In this document: piece by piece, positions 55,707-63,343 of the stretch | How positions within the stretch are numbered: position 1 is the stretch's first letter | Layout: every line of letters begins with the position of its first letter | NCBI RefSeq assembly: GCF_011044495.1 | Contig: NZ_CP049143.1 | Span: 62,001 to 126,000, forward strand | From: Roseimicrobium sp. ORNL1 | GTDB taxonomy: Bacteria > Verrucomicrobiota > Verrucomicrobiia > Verrucomicrobiales > Verrucomicrobiaceae | Reading direction: 5' to 3' | Length of the DNA stretch: 64,000 nucleotides | The notes under the pieces: generated by a model | Database searches by the model: none | Seen by the model: only the letters and a program-made list of their open reading frames with translations | What the model was told of the DNA's origin: nothing | Program-made: the position numbers and the translations under genes

Positions 55707-56423
55707 CTAGGTGTCTGTACCGGCACCTGCAGCGCTGGCCGTGCGATGGCGGTAGCCCATGCTGCGCACGGTCTCAATGATCCGCGGGTGCTCCACATCC
55801 CGCTCCACCTTCCGTCTCAGCTTGGCAATGTGCTGATCCAGGGTGCGCGACTCCGGCAGATACTGCAGGCCCCAGCAGCGATCGAGGAGCTCATCTCGAG
55901 TGACCACCTCTCCGATGCGCTCATGCAAGAGCTGCAGAATGCTGACCTCGCGTGGGGTGAGCCCGATTTCTCCCCCCTCCCTCGTGGCGCGGAGTTCGTG
56001 CGGATACACCATGATATCCTGCATGACGAAGACCTTCCCGCGACCGTTGCCAACGGAGGATTTCTGTGAACGCCTCAGTGCCGCGTGAATGCGCGCGAGG
56101 AGTTCCTGCCTGCCAAAGGGCTTCCGGATGAAATCATCCGCACCAAGCCGGAGTCCGACCACCACATCGACTTCCTCGCTCTTGGCGCTGAGGAAGAGCA
56201 CCGGCACCAGGGGATCCCGCTCGCGGATGCGGCGGCAGACTTCGTAACCATCCATGCGCGGCATCATGATATCCAAGCACACGAGCGCGGGCTGCTGCTG
56301 CTGCCAGAGCGCGAACGCCTCCTCTCCGTCCCGCGCCAGCACATTGACAAACCCCTCCGGCTCCAGGCAGGCCGCCAAGGAATCAAGCGTAATGGGATCG
56401 TCATCTGCGATCAAAACCTTCAT
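55707..56423 (-). CDS. OmpR-family response regulator
   Basis: 238 residues. Receiver domain 1-120 with the acidic pocket D7-D8-D9, phosphoacceptor D51 (VCLDIMMPRMDGYEV) and the conserved Lys in LFLSAKSEE. Winged-helix DNA-binding domain from about 133 to 232 (LTPREVSILQLLHERIGEVV, SRTLDQHIAKLRRKVERD). Its start overlaps the stop of the histidine kinase gene by 4 bp (ATGA), so the pair is translationally coupled and the kinase comes first, the reverse of the usual RR-HK order. The downstream end meets the 289-bp palindromic element. Confidence 0.94.
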   Translation of the reverse strand: MKVLIADDDPITLDSLAACLEPEGFVNVLARDGEEAFALWQQQQPALVCLDIMMPRMDGYEVCRRIRERDPLVPVLFLSAKSEEVDVVVGLRLGADDFIRKPFGRQELLARIHAALRRSQKSSVGNGRGKVFVMQDIMVYPHELRATREGGEIGLTPREVSILQLLHERIGEVVTRDELLDRCWGLQYLPESRTLDQHIAKLRRKVERDVEHPRIIETVRSMGYRHRTASAAGAGTDT

Positions 56424-58066
56424 GATGGTGCTGATTGAGATTGCGAGGGTGATGGAACTGAAGAGGTGGATTCGACCATGGCCACGTTTCCGGGTCCAGA
56501 GTCGCCTTTCTTGGGAGGGTCTACGACAGGAACACGCAGGACAAAGCAGGCACCCTTCGCGTCGTTGTTACCGTCGGACGGAAGCCCCAACTCCAGCGAG
56601 CCTCCCATGCGCTGCGCCAGCTCGCGAGCGATGCTGAGTCCCAGCCCGGTGCCGGTGACTCCAGCAGCCACACGATCATCCAGCCGTACGAAGGGCTCGA
56701 ACACACGAGTCGCATCTGCAGCGGAGACCCCGGGGCCACCATCATGCACCGTGAGCACGAAGTCATTCCCTTCGCGCTGCGTGGAGATCTGCACGGGTGC
56801 CCCAGGCGCGTATTTCTCCACGTTGGAAAGCAGGTTCGCCGTGATCTGCGATAGCGCATCCGGATCCAGGCCACAGGGTGTGTCATCTGCCCCGTCCTCC
56901 CGAATGACAGTGATGCCATGCCTGGCGAAACTGGGAGCAAACTGGTCCACCACCGCATCCACCACTTGTGCGGGACAGCACGCCACCGGGCGAAGCTTCA
57001 GCGATCCCTGCTCACGGCGGGAGAAAGTGAGAACATTGGCAATGAGCCGCGCCAGCCTTCCCGCCTCCTCCCGCACCAGTGCCAGACGTGAAGCCGCACG
57101 TCCTTCGTGGGGCAGCGAGTCCTCGATGATATCAAGGTTCAGCAGCATGTTCGTGAGCGGGGTGCGCAGCTCATGTGAGACACGGTTCACAAAAGACACA
57201 CGTTGCATGGCAAGCCGGTGCGCGCGGCGCTGCTGGACGAAGACGGCGACGCCCAACAGTGCGACGAGGATCGACAACAGTCCCGCCACCACAAGTGTTG
57301 GAAGGTGATACACCACGCTTGTTTCCATCCGGTCCCAGGACGCGAGCTGCCAGCTGCCATAGCGTGTGACCAGTGACTGGGACCAGTGGGGTGATTCATC
57401 CCCCGAGGGTGTGGCGGCACCGCCCAGCCGGGTGCCCGAAGGGGTCACCAGCTCCATCTGCCCTTCCAGCACCTCATGGAATTCCGGATGCCTCAGCAGC
57501 CACTCCTTGATCCAGCCATCCACCGCAGTCTGTACCTCCTTTGGTTCAATGGTGACGAAAACGATCCAATTGCCCGGCCCACGGCTCCAGTACATCAGAG
57601 GCCACGCCGGATCCTCCAGCCATCCCTCTTGCGGGGCATCGTCTTTGGTAAAGGCGGCCTTATCCAGCAGGCGGAGGTCGGAACGATTCAACGAAGGTGA
57701 TTCGAAAGTGGGCAAGGCGTACTTGCCTGCCGGGATCCTCGCGAGGCGCACATGTTCTTCGCGCGGTGTCGAGCGCAGGAGGAAGGAGCACGCCACCACC
57801 CCGGCGATTTCCCCGCACGCCTGCTGCGTACCGAACGTGTCCGACATCGTCACTCGAGTGACCATGCCCTCCAGGTGCTTTTCATGAAGCGCCTCCAGTC
57901 GCAAGAGTTCCTTCTGCAGAGCCGTCGCGAGCTGTTTGAGCGGCGCGCGATCCTGCGGGACACGCACCACTTCCTCCCGGCGGGACAGCGCGGCGCCTCC
58001 CGCCATGATGCATGCTGCCGTGAAGAGCAGCAGCATCAGGGTCAGGCGTGGCGCACCGGGTGTCAT
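56420..58066 (-). CDS. Sensor histidine kinase (HisKA/HATPase)
   Basis: 548 residues from the ATG at 58066 (a TTG four codons further up is possible). Two membrane segments, about 8-26 and about 236-258, enclose a periplasmic sensor of about 200 residues with no recognised fold. HisKA with H298 in FVNRVSHELRTPLTNM; N box ITANLLSNVEKYAPG, G boxes HDGGPGVSAAD and TGTGLGLSIARELAQ. The C-terminal tail is Ser/Pro-rich. Upstream on the same strand, 45 bp away, is the secretin-derived protein gene, so the three genes probably form one operon and the sensor may monitor that protein or the envelope. Confidence 0.93.
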   Translation of the reverse strand: MTPGAPRLTLMLLLFTAACIMAGGAALSRREEVVRVPQDRAPLKQLATALQKELLRLEALHEKHLEGMVTRVTMSDTFGTQQACGEIAGVVACSFLLRSTPREEHVRLARIPAGKYALPTFESPSLNRSDLRLLDKAAFTKDDAPQEGWLEDPAWPLMYWSRGPGNWIVFVTIEPKEVQTAVDGWIKEWLLRHPEFHEVLEGQMELVTPSGTRLGGAATPSGDESPHWSQSLVTRYGSWQLASWDRMETSVVYHLPTLVVAGLLSILVALLGVAVFVQQRRAHRLAMQRVSFVNRVSHELRTPLTNMLLNLDIIEDSLPHEGRAASRLALVREEAGRLARLIANVLTFSRREQGSLKLRPVACCPAQVVDAVVDQFAPSFARHGITVIREDGADDTPCGLDPDALSQITANLLSNVEKYAPGAPVQISTQREGNDFVLTVHDGGPGVSAADATRVFEPFVRLDDRVAAGVTGTGLGLSIARELAQRMGGSLELGLPSDGNNDAKGACFVLRVPVVDPPKKGDSGPGNVAMVESTSSVPSPSQSQSAPS

Positions 58067-58111: not shown

Positions 58112-59611
58112 CTACTCCACGGTCACTTTCACGAAGGCAAACCAGGTCCGGCCATCATCCTGCCGGCCATTCGCGCCGGTATCATGAGGGCGGCTCATGG
58201 TGCCAAGAAAGCATTGGCGACCCACCACGGCGGTCACGGCGGTGGTCACCTTCTGCGCGGCGAACATGGGCTGCTCCGGATAACGTGCCAGGAGGGGATG
58301 CCCCTGAACAATGCCCCGGTACTCCACCAGTTCTGGAGCAAGGTTGAGATCCACGACATTGGCTTTGATGCTGAGCACAGGATCAACCTCAATACGCCAG
58401 CCGGTCGGTCGGGTCTCGAACCTGGAAAACCCTGCGGGCAGCAATGGCGCTCCCTTCTTGAATACGGGCTGGGTCGGGGTCGCCGCAGGCTTCGCTGCCT
58501 GGTCTTTAGGATCGGCCGGGCCTGCGGGCTTGGCGACCTTTGCATCGACTTTTGGCGGTGCAGAGGGAACCATTTCCGTGCCGTACATCCACTCCCCGCT
58601 CTCTGCTGTGAGGCTTCGCTGCCCGGAGCGGGTGATAACGGTGACCACCCGTTCCAGCTTTGCTTCATCCTTGGGCAGAGACGTCGTTTTTTGCAAAAGG
58701 ATGTCCGCATCCACGGTTTCTGCGATGAGGTCACGCGCTTTCTCCCGGGGAAGAGAATAGAAGCGGAAGACCATGCGGATGTTCTTGGAAATGTCAGCGG
58801 CATCGTCAGCCACAGCAGGCACATCAGCCGGCACCGGACTGGAGTGCCCATAGCGCACAAAAGTGATGCTGACAGACCCATCTCCATCCGCTCCGGTGAC
58901 CCCTGTGCCCTTGGGACTACTCGTGGTCCCCATCAAGGTGGGAACGCCAATGCGGCAGCTCATTGCACTGTTGATCATTCTTGATGCAATCACGGGAAGC
59001 ACCTCGCCATCCGCGTTCGGATCTGCCTTGGCGGCGGTGAATCCTGCCAGGCGGGTAAAAGAAAGGGCGGCGTTCAGATCTACGATCGCGCCATCTGGCC
59101 CCTCCACCGGATCGAGTTCGATGCGCTCGCCCAGGGGACGCATCTCATACGCGGTGGGGAAATGGAAGGGTCTGCCGGGCACGGCAGGATCAAACTCTGT
59201 GGGATAGATGAGTTCATCCACGCTCTCCACGGTGGAGCGCTGTCCGCTCCTGGTGGGTACGACCAGGAGCGACTCCAAGGCTGCCTGACCTGCAGTGACC
59301 ATCTGACGTACGCGGTCAAAGAAGGGCTGGGGTGCCAGTGCTTCCTCGTGAAGCGCATCCAGGGCGCTCTGCGGCATCTTGTAAGTCTCGAAGGTGAACA
59401 CGAGGTGATGCGGTGGTGCCTCTGGGGCAGCCGGGGGCTTGGCAGGCGTGGGTTTGCCCTTCACGAAGGGGTCTCCGGGAGGCTTGGTCGCTTCACCCTG
59501 GGACGGTTTGGCTTCGGCGGGGGTGGCTTTCTGGGCATGCAGTCCGCCCGCCGACGGGGCGAGCCAGAGCGCCACAGAGGCGAATAAACAGAGAATACGA
59601 TGAGTTTTCAT
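58112..59611 (-). CDS. Exported protein made of two secretin-derived modules
   Basis: 499 residues from the ATG at 59611 with signal peptide MKTHRILCLFASVALWLAPSAGGLHAQ and a Pro/Ala-rich linker to about 68. Two homologous modules follow. Module 1 (about 71-255) has TRSGQRSTVESVDELIYPTE, RIELDPVEGPDGAIVDLN and a TLMGTTSSPKGTG segment. Module 2 (about 280-499) has ITRSGQRSLTAESGEWMYGTE, RIEVDPVLSIKANVVDLNLA and FLGTMSRPHDTGAN. The IYPTE, EVDP/VDLN and KVTTAVTAVVGRQC segments resemble the distal region of secretins as found in Verrucomicrobiota. No secretin pore-forming full domain or N0/N1 repeats are visible, so pore formation is unlikely. Function unknown. Confidence 0.7.
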   Translation of the reverse strand: MKTHRILCLFASVALWLAPSAGGLHAQKATPAEAKPSQGEATKPPGDPFVKGKPTPAKPPAAPEAPPHHLVFTFETYKMPQSALDALHEEALAPQPFFDRVRQMVTAGQAALESLLVVPTRSGQRSTVESVDELIYPTEFDPAVPGRPFHFPTAYEMRPLGERIELDPVEGPDGAIVDLNAALSFTRLAGFTAAKADPNADGEVLPVIASRMINSAMSCRIGVPTLMGTTSSPKGTGVTGADGDGSVSITFVRYGHSSPVPADVPAVADDAADISKNIRMVFRFYSLPREKARDLIAETVDADILLQKTTSLPKDEAKLERVVTVITRSGQRSLTAESGEWMYGTEMVPSAPPKVDAKVAKPAGPADPKDQAAKPAATPTQPVFKKGAPLLPAGFSRFETRPTGWRIEVDPVLSIKANVVDLNLAPELVEYRGIVQGHPLLARYPEQPMFAAQKVTTAVTAVVGRQCFLGTMSRPHDTGANGRQDDGRTWFAFVKVTVE

Positions 59612-59833
59612 GGGCATCATGATGAGGAGTGAAGCAGTCGTCAGCGGTGCTCGATGCTGGCGTTGAAAAGACTCTGGCCCATTCCACACCGTTCTGTGTC
59701 AACGCGCCGTGAATGGATTGTAAAAGTTCTGTGAACGCATGCTCCATCCCCGGACCACCTGAGGTCTTGCCCCCCGACATGGGGACTGAGAAACTATGGG
59801 GTCCCCGGACGTATTTGTCCTCTTGCCCGCACT

Positions 59834-62800
59834 ATGATCTCCGCTCCGCGATTCCACGCGTCCGCCACCTGCACGGTGGCTCTCCTCAGCATGGCCGGTT
59901 TTGGTCCGGTCCTGCGCGCGGAGGAAAATCCACATGGGGATGTCTTCAAGAACAGGCCCGTGCCTGCCATCGTGGACTACAACCGCGATGTGCGGCCCAT
60001 CATCTCGGAGAAATGCTTCCACTGTCACGGGGCGGATGAAAGCTCGCGCAAGGCCAAGCTGCGCCTCGATCTGCGCGACGAGGCGGTGAAGGTTCACAAG
60101 GGTACCTTCGCCGTGAAGCCGAAGGACCCGGACAACAGCGAGGTGATGAAGCGCATCCTCACCAAGGATCCGGATGAGGTCATGCCGCCACCGGAGCATG
60201 GGCACGCGCTGAGCACGCGGGAAATCGAGATCATGCGGAAGTGGATCGCGCAGGGCGCGGAATACTTGGAGCACTGGGCCTTCATCCCGCCGGTGAAACG
60301 GAAGCCGGAGGGCAAGATGGATCCCATTGATGGCTGGATCGCTCAAAAGCAACAGGAGCACGGCCTCGCCCTGTCTCCCGAGGCGGACAGATACACCCTG
60401 ATACGCCGTGTGGCCTTGGATCTCACGGGCCTGCCGCCGAGTCCGGAGGAAGTGAAAGCCTATCTGCAAGACACCAGCGACACGGCGTACGCCAGCATGG
60501 TGGATCGTTATCTTGCGAAGCCCGCCTATGGTGAACGCTGGGCTCGCGTGTGGCTGGACATCGCGCGCTATGCGGACTCCGCAGGCTACGGCAGCGACCC
60601 GTTGCGCCTCAATATCTGGCCATATCGCGATTGGGTCATCCAGGCCTTCAATCGCAACCTGCCCTACGACCAGTTCACCACGGAGCAGATTGCGGGTGAC
60701 CTCCTGCCGAATGCGACGGAGGAGCAACTCGTGGCCACCGCCTTCCATCGCAACACGATGACGAACACCGAAGGCGGCACAGATGACGAGGAGTTTCGAG
60801 TCGCTGCTGTGAAGGACCGCATCGCCACCACCATGCAGACGTGGATGGGCCTCACGCTCGGCTGCGCGCAGTGCCACTCGCACAAGTTCGACCCCATCAC
60901 GCAGCAGGAATACTACGAGTTCTTCGCCATCTTCAACCAGACGGAGGACAGCGACAAAGGAGATGAGTCCCCGACCCTGCCCAAGCCGACAGAAGAACAG
61001 AAGCAGAAGACGCAGGTGCTACAGGGCGAGATCGCCACGCTGGAAAAGCGCATGAATGAAACGGCCTCGCCTGAACTGCAGAAGGAACTGGCCGCATGGG
61101 AAAGCACCATCAAACAACCCACCAGGTGGGAGCCGCTCGCCGTCACTTCGTTGAAATCCCAGAAGGGCGTGAAATTGCAGCAGGCCGAGGACCTCTCCAT
61201 CCTGGCGGACGCAGCCGAATCCGATGTGCACACCGTGGAAGCCACGGCGCAGGGCAAGCGCATCACCGGCGTACTGGTGGAGGCCCTCGCGAGCGACAGC
61301 CTGCCCGGCAAAGGACCCGGTCGCTCAGGTGGCGGGAACTTTGTGCTGAGCGAGTTCAAGCTCAGCACGGTGCCTGTGGATGCCAAAGCTGAGGCGAAAC
61401 GTGCGCGCTACGTGCGTGTGTCGCTCCCTGGAAAGGCCCGCCTGCTTCACCTCGCCGAGGTGCAGGTGTTCTCCGGCGGTAAGAACGTGGCCCTGCAAGG
61501 CGCGGCCAGCCAGTCCTCCACGGGATACGATGGTCCCGCCAAACTCGCGAACGACGGCAATACGGACGGCAACTACGCAAAGAAGTCTGTCAGTCATTGT
61601 GCCCAGCAGGATGATCCGTGGTGGGAGATCGATTTGAAGAGCGAGATGCCCATCGACTCCGTGACCGTGTGGAATCGCACGGACGGTGACACCAGCAAAC
61701 GCACCGAGAATTTTGTCGTGACCGCATTGGGAGGGAACCGCGAAGAGCTCTTCCGCACGCAACAAGCAGCCGAGCCGAAGCCGAGCGCTAGCTTCACACT
61801 GGGTGGGCCCACGCTAGTCGCGTTCCGCGATGTTACTGCTGACTTCGAGCAGCAGGACTATCCAGCGAAGAACGCCATCGATGGTAAGGATGACACCGGC
61901 TGGGCAGTGGGGCCGAGCTTTGGTGTGGATCATCGCGCCGTGTTTGTCGCCTCACGTCCGTTTGGCGAGGCGGGCAAGGACACGAAGCTCACGTTCACGC
62001 TCGCGCAGCACTACGGATCGAACCACACGCTGGGACGCTATCGCATTTCCATCACCACGGATGCCGCACCGCAGCCGGCGCTTCCGGAGAATATCCGGAA
62101 CATCCTCGCCACGCCCGCGAAGGATCGCACGCCTGCTGATGCTGCGACGCTCCTCGCCTATTACAAGCCCACGTCGAAAGCCTTCGCTGACACGCGCAAG
62201 GAGCTTGAGGCAAAACAAAAGGCGCTCGTGGGCATCAAGCCGCTCGCCGTGCCCGTGATGAAGGAACTCGTGAAGGACAAGCAGCGTGAGAGCCACTTCC
62301 TCGTGAAAGGCAACTTCCTCATGCCCGGCGACAAGGTGCAGCCTGCTCTATTGAAGTCCTTCCACAAATCACCCGAGGCCGGACCTGCATCACGCCTCAC
62401 CGTGGCGCACTGGCTGATGTCGCGTGACAATCCGCTCACCGCACGCGTGGCCGTGAACCGCTTCTGGGCACAGTTGTTTGGACGCGGACTCGTGGAGACG
62501 GAGGAGGACTTCGGCACGCAGGGCACCTTGCCCACGAACGCGGAGCTGCTCGACTACCTCGCGGTGCAGTTCATGGATCTGAAGTGGGACACGAAGGCCC
62601 TGCTACGCGAGATCGTGATGAGCCAGACGTACCGGCAGGTGAGCCGTCCCTCTGCGGACTCGGTGAAGAAGGACCCGCGCAACGAATGGCTCAGTCACTA
62701 CCCGCGCCGTCGTCTTGATGCGGAACAGGTGCGCGATCAGGCGCTCGCCTTGAGCAATCTCCTTTCTCCCAAGATGGGTGGTCCGAGTGTGTATCCTCCG

Positions 62801-63343
62801 CAGCCGGATGGCCTGTGGCGTGCTGCCTTCAATGGCCAGCGCTCGTGGGACACCAGCAAAGGTGAGGATCGTTATCGCCGCGGCCTCTACACCTTCTGGC
62901 GCCGCACTGTGCCCTATCCCAGCATGGCCACCTTCGATGCCCCGAGCCGTGAGAACTCCACCATGCGCCGCCTGCCTACGAACACACCCCTGCAGGCCTT
63001 CGTGACGTTGAACGATCCCGCTTATGTGGAAATGGCCCAGGCACTCGGCGCACGCATCCTGCGTGAAGGCGGCGCGACGGTAGAGGAACGTGTGGAGTTC
63101 GGCATGGAGCTGTGCCTCGCACGTCCGGTAACCGCAGAGCAAGTCGCCACCCTGGTGCAGCTCTACCAGCAGGAACTCGCGAACTACCAGGCGAATGCCG
63201 AGGACGCGAAGAAGCTCTCCACCAGCACCACCCTGCCCGCTGAGAAAGGCTTCGCTCCGAACACCCCGCCCGCCGAAGCCGCCGCCTGGACCGCCGTGGC
63301 GAACGTGCTGCTGAACCTCGATGGTGTGCTCACCAAAGGCTGA
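59834..63343 (+). CDS. PSCyt1-DUF1549-DUF1553 protein with a fucolectin-like insert
   Basis: 1169 residues, signal peptide up to about residue 30 (ASATCTVALLSMAGFGPVLRA). PSCyt1 heme motif C61-F-H-C64-H65, then DUF1549 (about 160-370; RVALDLTGLPPSPEEV, WLDIARYADSAGYG) ending with a second motif C344-A-Q-C347-H348 (TLGCAQCHSHKFD), and DUF1553 in the C-terminal 400 residues (RLTVAHWLMSRDNPLTARV, VNRFWAQLFGRG, LGARILREGG). Between them about 450-680 is a discoidin/fucolectin-like region: NVALQGAASQSSTGYDG and PWWEIDLKSEMPIDSVTVWN. Such lectin-like domains bind sugars; here it would tether an electron-transfer protein to a polysaccharide. Followed 10 bp later by DUF1501. Confidence 0.9.
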   Translation: MISAPRFHASATCTVALLSMAGFGPVLRAEENPHGDVFKNRPVPAIVDYNRDVRPIISEKCFHCHGADESSRKAKLRLDLRDEAVKVHKGTFAVKPKDPDNSEVMKRILTKDPDEVMPPPEHGHALSTREIEIMRKWIAQGAEYLEHWAFIPPVKRKPEGKMDPIDGWIAQKQQEHGLALSPEADRYTLIRRVALDLTGLPPSPEEVKAYLQDTSDTAYASMVDRYLAKPAYGERWARVWLDIARYADSAGYGSDPLRLNIWPYRDWVIQAFNRNLPYDQFTTEQIAGDLLPNATEEQLVATAFHRNTMTNTEGGTDDEEFRVAAVKDRIATTMQTWMGLTLGCAQCHSHKFDPITQQEYYEFFAIFNQTEDSDKGDESPTLPKPTEEQKQKTQVLQGEIATLEKRMNETASPELQKELAAWESTIKQPTRWEPLAVTSLKSQKGVKLQQAEDLSILADAAESDVHTVEATAQGKRITGVLVEALASDSLPGKGPGRSGGGNFVLSEFKLSTVPVDAKAEAKRARYVRVSLPGKARLLHLAEVQVFSGGKNVALQGAASQSSTGYDGPAKLANDGNTDGNYAKKSVSHCAQQDDPWWEIDLKSEMPIDSVTVWNRTDGDTSKRTENFVVTALGGNREELFRTQQAAEPKPSASFTLGGPTLVAFRDVTADFEQQDYPAKNAIDGKDDTGWAVGPSFGVDHRAVFVASRPFGEAGKDTKLTFTLAQHYGSNHTLGRYRISITTDAAPQPALPENIRNILATPAKDRTPADAATLLAYYKPTSKAFADTRKELEAKQKALVGIKPLAVPVMKELVKDKQRESHFLVKGNFLMPGDKVQPALLKSFHKSPEAGPASRLTVAHWLMSRDNPLTARVAVNRFWAQLFGRGLVETEEDFGTQGTLPTNAELLDYLAVQFMDLKWDTKALLREIVMSQTYRQVSRPSADSVKKDPRNEWLSHYPRRRLDAEQVRDQALALSNLLSPKMGGPSVYPPQPDGLWRAAFNGQRSWDTSKGEDRYRRGLYTFWRRTVPYPSMATFDAPSRENSTMRRLPTNTPLQAFVTLNDPAYVEMAQALGARILREGGATVEERVEFGMELCLARPVTAEQVATLVQLYQQELANYQANAEDAKKLSTSTTLPAEKGFAPNTPPAEAAAWTAVANVLLNLDGVLTKG

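Follow-up and report, generated by a model that had tools for sequence, protein, structure and literature searches.

The window, that is, the whole stretch of 64,000 nucleotides of Roseimicrobium sp. ORNL1 DNA analyzed here, carries on its minus strand a gene for a two-module, secretin-derived protein, followed by the genes of a histidine kinase and a response regulator and preceded by a putative regulator box. The features of this locus are the following:

58112..59611, minus strand: two-module secretin-derived protein, probably exported (499 aa; the span includes the stop codon)
59534..59611, minus strand: probable signal peptide, residues 1–26 (from the sequence and the hydrophobic N-termini of relatives; putative cleavage site)
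59417..59533, minus strand: low-complexity linker, residues 27–65, with a conserved DPFVK motif (low pLDDT)
58838..59416, minus strand: module 1, residues 66–258, a secretin beta-domain without a GATE1-sized segment and without VPxLGxIP
58115..58786, minus strand: module 2, residues 276–499, on the same plan as module 1, with a conserved C-terminal GTMSRPHDTGANGRQDDGRTW segment
56420..58066, minus strand: histidine kinase with TM1, a dCACHE-like periplasmic sensor, TM2, HisKA and HATPase_c (no HAMP match in Pfam)
55707..56423, minus strand: OmpR/PhoB-type response regulator
59719..59735, minus strand: tandem half-sites with 11-bp spacing, TTCACAGAACTTTTACA, putative regulator box
59697..59702, minus strand: TTGACA, putative −35 element by its sequence, 22 bp downstream of the second half-site

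The kinase gene (ATG at 58066, stop at 56420) adjoins the module gene downstream on the same strand, and its stop overlaps the start of the regulator gene by 4 nt. On the other side, the operon adjoins a divergent PSCyt1-PSCyt2-PSD1 protein (DUF1549/DUF1553) with an F5/8 type C domain (59834–63343), as it does in the sister genome. This gene was excluded from the unit because other relatives carry genes there that do not group with it.

The open frame of the module protein runs on the minus strand from the ATG at 59611 to the stop codon at 58112–58114 and encodes 499 amino acids. This ATG, rather than the GTG at 59689, is probably the start codon, because relatives align from there (MKTH, MKLL and similar). 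The N-terminus is hydrophobic (MKTHRILCLFASVALWLA), which suggests export; one crude criterion detected a hydrophobic N-terminus in 59 of 81 module frames and another in 53 of 63 first module genes, with a lipobox in one of the 63. Ahead of the first module, 62 of the 81 module genes, and 56 of 65 operons, have a [DN]P[FYL] motif, in many cases similar to DPFVK or NPFVKK; shuffles gave a mean of 5 and a maximum of 9. Both modules then display the order of segments described in the initial annotation, namely TRSGQRS, YPTE or YGTE, RIELDPV or RIEVDPV followed by VDLN, and a GT-rich segment with a terminal DG...FV strand. Alignment of the two modules, a check proposed at that stage, shows that they are homologous. 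The internal repeat is far above chance: module 1 (66–258) and module 2 (276–499) match by BLASTP with 27% identity and an E-value of 2e-18 for a single comparison, and their profiles, built from 14 relatives, align by hhalign over 177 columns (probability 99.5%, E 4e-22). GTLxPPxDTGxN..DxxRxW and other motifs are retained among relatives at about 30% identity.

In NCBIfam, the module protein matches a single family, Amuc_1098 type IV pilus secretin (NF042912), over three stretches (E 1.1e-25), with a score of 90 bits against a full-length cut-off of 750. The profiles of modules 1 and 2 also matched a canonical secretin profile, composed of three secretins from the window's genome and one from the family, with hhalign probabilities of 99.4% and 99.3%, respectively. 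A Pfam scan of the module protein at E-values up to 1 returned neither PF00263 nor PF03958, the two families named in the initial annotation, and no other family. Among relatives, L196 (52 bits), L111 (39) and L067 (28) score above the PF00263 cut-off of 27.5 bits and L065 (22) and L050 (19) under it. No relative of solved structure was detected by sequence at an E-value of 10, and membership in a viral family was rejected, there being no PHROGs match at an E-value of 0.1.

The AlphaFold model of the module protein has a pLDDT of 74 overall and above 90 in parts of both modules. When this model was compared with the PDB by Foldseek, the best 23 rows were all secretins, with 13 rows at E ≤ 0.001; these matches are partial, with TM-scores of 0.15–0.42 and large rmsd. 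In VIA-align, the first 28 rows were likewise all secretins (Z 9.2 to 6.9), the next row being FadL (Z 5.2); pIV (7ofh) aligned over 141 residues with an rmsd of 3.5 within residues 57–258, and InvG (6q14) within residues 275–499. Each module is homologous to the beta-domain of Amuc_1098-type secretins. The resemblance to secretins noted from the sequence at the outset thus holds for both modules, by sequence (NCBIfam, hhalign) and by predicted fold (Foldseek, VIA); the failure of both modules to match a secretin fold had been named as an outcome that would speak against it, and a secretin fold was matched.

Several hallmarks of secretins are missing from the module protein. From the first strand to the SGQ site, as measured between landmarks of our choosing, the modules have 42 and 41 residues versus 123, 121, and 127 in three secretins encoded by the window's genome. 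The missing stretch of about 80 residues is probably GATE1, the hairpin that makes the physical gate barrier, judging from the InvG report (PMC6155069). N-domains are absent, with only the 39-residue, low-confidence linker separating the signal peptide from module 1. The VPxLGxIPxxGxLF segment, present in the three canonical secretins of the window's genome, is absent from both modules, and VPxLGxIP occurs in none of the 81 module genes found. We take this segment to be the amphipathic helical loop of secretins. Published work calls this loop the best-conserved stretch of secretin sequence and proposes that it plays a central part in associating with the membrane (PMC6155069; similarly PMC6532946 and PMC10653833). 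Because a GATE1-sized segment, VPxLGxIP, and N-domains are all missing, the protein is secretin-derived and not a secretin, and we ruled out its identification as an ordinary one. Of the initial proposal that a secretin core was duplicated and lost its pore function, the duplication is borne out by the homology of the modules, and the loss of the pore is backed only indirectly, by the same three absences; the suggested role as a periplasmic scaffold is hypothetical.

We then considered gene order as seen from the module gene. Matches were found in 65 of 68 genomes of the family (E ≤ 1e-5) and in 212 of 288 genomes of the order (E ≤ 1e-8), canonical secretins being counted in both searches. Full-length two-module relatives are present in 12 family genomes, the window's included, and 14 sequences were aligned. 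A contig scan with this alignment gave nine loci (Verrucomicrobiaceae, Prosthecobacter, and Verrucomicrobia MAGs), which lie largely on the same contigs as the family genomes and do not represent additional cases. Family genomes having the two-module protein carry the module gene, the kinase, and the regulator on one strand, and two more family genomes have a single-module gene with the kinase; most other single-module or larger relatives examined in this first set lack it. Among 20 further module loci of the order, 10 are accompanied by the kinase (L112, L114, L117, L119, L120, L122, L123, L127, L128, and L129) and 10 are not. The module therefore is a wider family than the three-gene unit, and its presence does not imply that of the kinase. 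No module–kinase fusion was found among the segments scanned.

Other arrangements of the module were encountered during these searches. The window's genome encodes a larger relative of 727 aa that reads as two modules (L059:5626-7809), and another, of 885 aa, reads as three (L067:5453-8110). Three single-module genes stand in a row beside a VIT-SLBB protein in L115:1690-7570 and L126:4867-10601. In six genomes (L050, L051, L053, L054, L055, and L063), a single-module protein directly follows a gene of one and the same cluster, identified by Pfam as PSCyt2 (DUF1549) in both of the genomes scanned.

The kinase of the window was modeled over its first 300 residues, which include the periplasmic domain at about residues 28–255 (AlphaFold pLDDT 77.5). 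Foldseek placed the sensor domains of CqsR, KinD, and Mlp24 on top, with two rows at E ≤ 0.001 and TM-scores of 0.20–0.37 in the first seven rows. VIA gave Z-scores of 8.6 and below, in the range that the tool calls common, most rows being dCACHE domains; LuxQ (6.8) and the entry of the LuxP-LuxQ complex (6.5) are among them with modest Z-scores.

To view the linkage from the kinase side, a kinase profile built from 22 known operons was searched in the 288 genomes of the order, with five candidates scored per genome. It retrieved at least 73 places at E ≤ 2.5e-111 in at least 62 genomes. We examined 70 kinases with the same sensor as the window's kinase, those of at least 370 bits, a cut chosen after the data were seen, and left out three whose start is no more than 140 bases away from a contig end. 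The module profile detected a module gene at most 400 nt upstream on the same strand in 65 of the 70. Recovery of the 22 profile operons is by construction because the profile was made from them; outside the profile, the figure is 43 of 48 kinases, to which may be added L157, where the kinase frame is broken and a module gene lies 417 nt upstream of it. As for the others, L158 and L169 lie at contig ends, no module gene lies upstream of the kinase of L177 (372 bits), and at L138 the kinase is preceded by a frame (L138:3515-4630) that is not a module and whose product corresponds to the Amuc_1098 model in an N-terminal part only (E 4.6e-23). None of 14 lower-scoring kinases (286–323 bits), taken from the following section of the list without being strictly the next 14, with others of that range left out, has a module gene upstream. 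A regulator gene follows the kinase in 66 of the 70 cases; the script found none at L133, L149, L153, and L117, yet separate inspection revealed one at L117. By frame length, the 65 operons comprise 28 with one fused two-module gene, 21 with one single-module gene, 10 with two single-module genes, and 6 with two fused genes, although L132, L150, and L156 may be misfiled as fused or single because contig ends cut them.

Beyond the order, the kinase was found at E ≤ 1e-95 in 2 of 286 genomes of the class and in 1 of 288 genomes of another class in the phylum, and all three cases retain the module gene, the kinase, and the regulator. The three-gene order that the initial annotation suggested looking for in other Verrucomicrobiota thus exists in the order, in the class, and in another class of the phylum. 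Over the 65 operons, pairwise distances between kinase sensors and those between the adjoining modules are correlated (0.78), much of which is expected because neighbors share descent. In nine genomes with two operons, the same module–kinase pairing was observed in 28 of 29 informative comparisons, which shows that partners were not exchanged. The adjoining of kinase and module gene is not accidental. The link with a two-component system, advanced as a possibility from the sequence, is strongly supported from the kinase side (65/70), whereas it does not extend to the 10 of 20 further module loci that lack this kinase.

The region upstream of the operons was also examined. Sixty-two of the 65 operons gave at least 100 bases, with module starts set by a script rule, and the other three were dropped. 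In 50 of 60 upstream regions we found 8-mers within one mismatch of TTTTTACA, the commonest 8-mer in five shuffled sets reaching 23. Half-sites TT[TGC][AG]C[AG] at a spacing of 11, a pattern chosen after the data were seen, occur in 42 of 62 regions and are lacking in strict form in the other 20. At any other spacing from 8 to 21, they occur in 0 or 1 of the 62 regions, and on the opposite strand in none; shuffles gave a mean of 0.29 and a maximum of 2 in 200 runs. An 11-bp spacing of half-sites is typical of the OmpR/PhoB family, and this tandem repeat resembles a regulator binding site, a role that must be regarded as putative. Half-sites are of the AA type in 33 boxes, of the GG type in 8, and mixed in 1. 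The GG-type operons, with TTTTGCA-like half-sites instead of TTTTACA (L160, L163, L164, L165, L167, L170, L173, and L174), all have kinases of 404–434 bits; regulator residues that differ between the two types look like clade differences.

A pattern fitted to the window's box has no other match in the 64 kb at up to three mismatches, and this box itself differs from the family consensus at two positions. In 67 family genomes the exact consensus occurs 13 times: 10 copies precede module operons that served to derive it, 2 lie at contig ends that represent beginnings or copies of such operons, and 1 lies elsewhere in the window's genome. A wide regulon was rejected: with up to three mismatches, the window's genome contains 9 matches versus 10 for a backwards control, and with up to two mismatches the 67 family genomes contain 37 (13 exact) versus 29. 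Degenerate sites are uninformative because inexact matches do not beat this control. The last of the 13 exact boxes (L210:4979-4996) has a TTGAC element at the same distance and stands before the gene of a 310-aa protein whose N-terminus is hydrophobic and for which Pfam gives no match; in the sister genome, the equivalent intergenic region holds a weaker box at a different position. Boxes found around position 1501 in both L223 and L224 have an upstream flank like that of the operons, as judged by eye, and no module gene is seen behind them; they are possibly remnants of lost operons.

We lean toward a reading, somewhat probable in our opinion, in which the module protein is an accessory subunit of the dCACHE-like kinase in an autoregulated three-component system. 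Two Amuc_1098-type secretin beta-domains, stripped of the GATE1-sized segment, VPxLGxIP, and N-domains, would have become an exported, probably periplasmic protein, which would contact the co-encoded kinase and serve it as a sensing or modulating subunit. The kinase, with its double-CACHE-like periplasmic domain, would relay the signal to the OmpR-type regulator, which would control its own operon by binding the 11-bp tandem repeat that precedes the module gene. The main rival is an output-only reading: the module protein would be an effector made by the system, some envelope or secretin-associated part, and the kinase would sense something unrelated through its dCACHE-like domain. The conserved gene order is also compatible with a module protein that is just a regulated output, dCACHE domains usually bind small ligands directly, and many module genes occur without this kinase. 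Moreover, 12 of the 13 exact boxes belong to module operons or to their beginnings or copies at contig ends, partly by construction since the pattern was drawn there, so that module genes may be what the system chiefly produces. We nevertheless consider this rival rather unlikely. In genomes with two operons, module and kinase sensor have been passed on together, although this is common for neighboring genes, and the overlapping or closely spaced genes favor a joint complex without proving it.

That the protein would still form a pore in the outer membrane, as a secretin ring reduced by the loss of GATE1 and made of two long-stranded modules, is improbable. Strands of up to about 20 residues do remain in the predicted model, and a second, weaker set of structural matches (Z 5.2 and below) consists of outer-membrane barrels, FadL among them, but none of the 81 module genes retains VPxLGxIP, taken as the membrane-associating loop, and N-domains are gone. 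The missing segments might also be read as the decay of a functionless secretin fragment, an explanation to which we give hardly any credence in view of the open frames, the motifs conserved at about 30% identity, and the retention of the operon across families. The boldest reading, which we put forward as speculative and on balance unlikely, is that the module protein acts as a decoy secretin wall: it would retain the subunit–subunit edges yet could neither gate nor insert, and it could therefore bind free or misassembled secretin subunits, with the kinase reading its free versus bound state. If this were true, the unit would amount to a dedicated monitor of secretin assembly.

Secretins are known as pores. 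Here, the secretin wall domain has been freed, duplicated, and placed in a signaling operon, where it is tied to one kinase family in many genomes of an order and in a few lineages beyond, which suggests a new kind of envelope-sensing switch and illustrates a route by which part of a secretion machine may turn into a regulatory part. The gene, its partner, and the promoter box offer a concrete handle on envelope sensing in Verrucomicrobiota. No account of a secretin-module/kinase unit was found in the literature searched, which excluded most subscription journals and all bioRxiv preprints.

Like the Amuc_1098 secretin (NF042912; PF00263), the module protein has the homologous beta-domain, once per module, with the SGQ, YPTE, DPV, and VDLN segments; unlike it, it lacks N-domains and VPxLGxIP, has 41–42 instead of 121–127 residues from the first strand to SGQ, carries two domains per chain, and is linked to a kinase. 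LuxP is a periplasmic accessory protein, of the sugar-binding type, of the sensor kinase LuxQ. LuxP-LuxQ and similar pairs share with our unit a partner co-encoded with the kinase, and the modeled kinase sensor resembles the double-PDC/dCACHE type, with LuxQ among its matches, but the partner here is a secretin domain rather than a sugar-binding-type protein, and the regulator is of the OmpR type. Psp systems show that bacteria can detect secretin multimers specifically (PMC5596341). The Psp response to mislocalized secretins resembles our unit in being a signaling system associated with secretins (same source), whereas in our case a secretin domain is itself part of the system; any functional connection with Psp would be hypothetical. 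BlaR1-type M56 peptidases with a fused secretin domain are encoded in the same lineage, at L058:5984-9246 in the window's genome, where the fusion adjoins a BlaI-type repressor, and at L028:256-2241 and L031:295-2304, where it is followed by an SLBB domain. These fusions also join a secretin domain to a membrane signaling protein, but they do so in a single chain, and the one of the window's genome, in our reading, retains in addition a stretch resembling the canonical N1 region.
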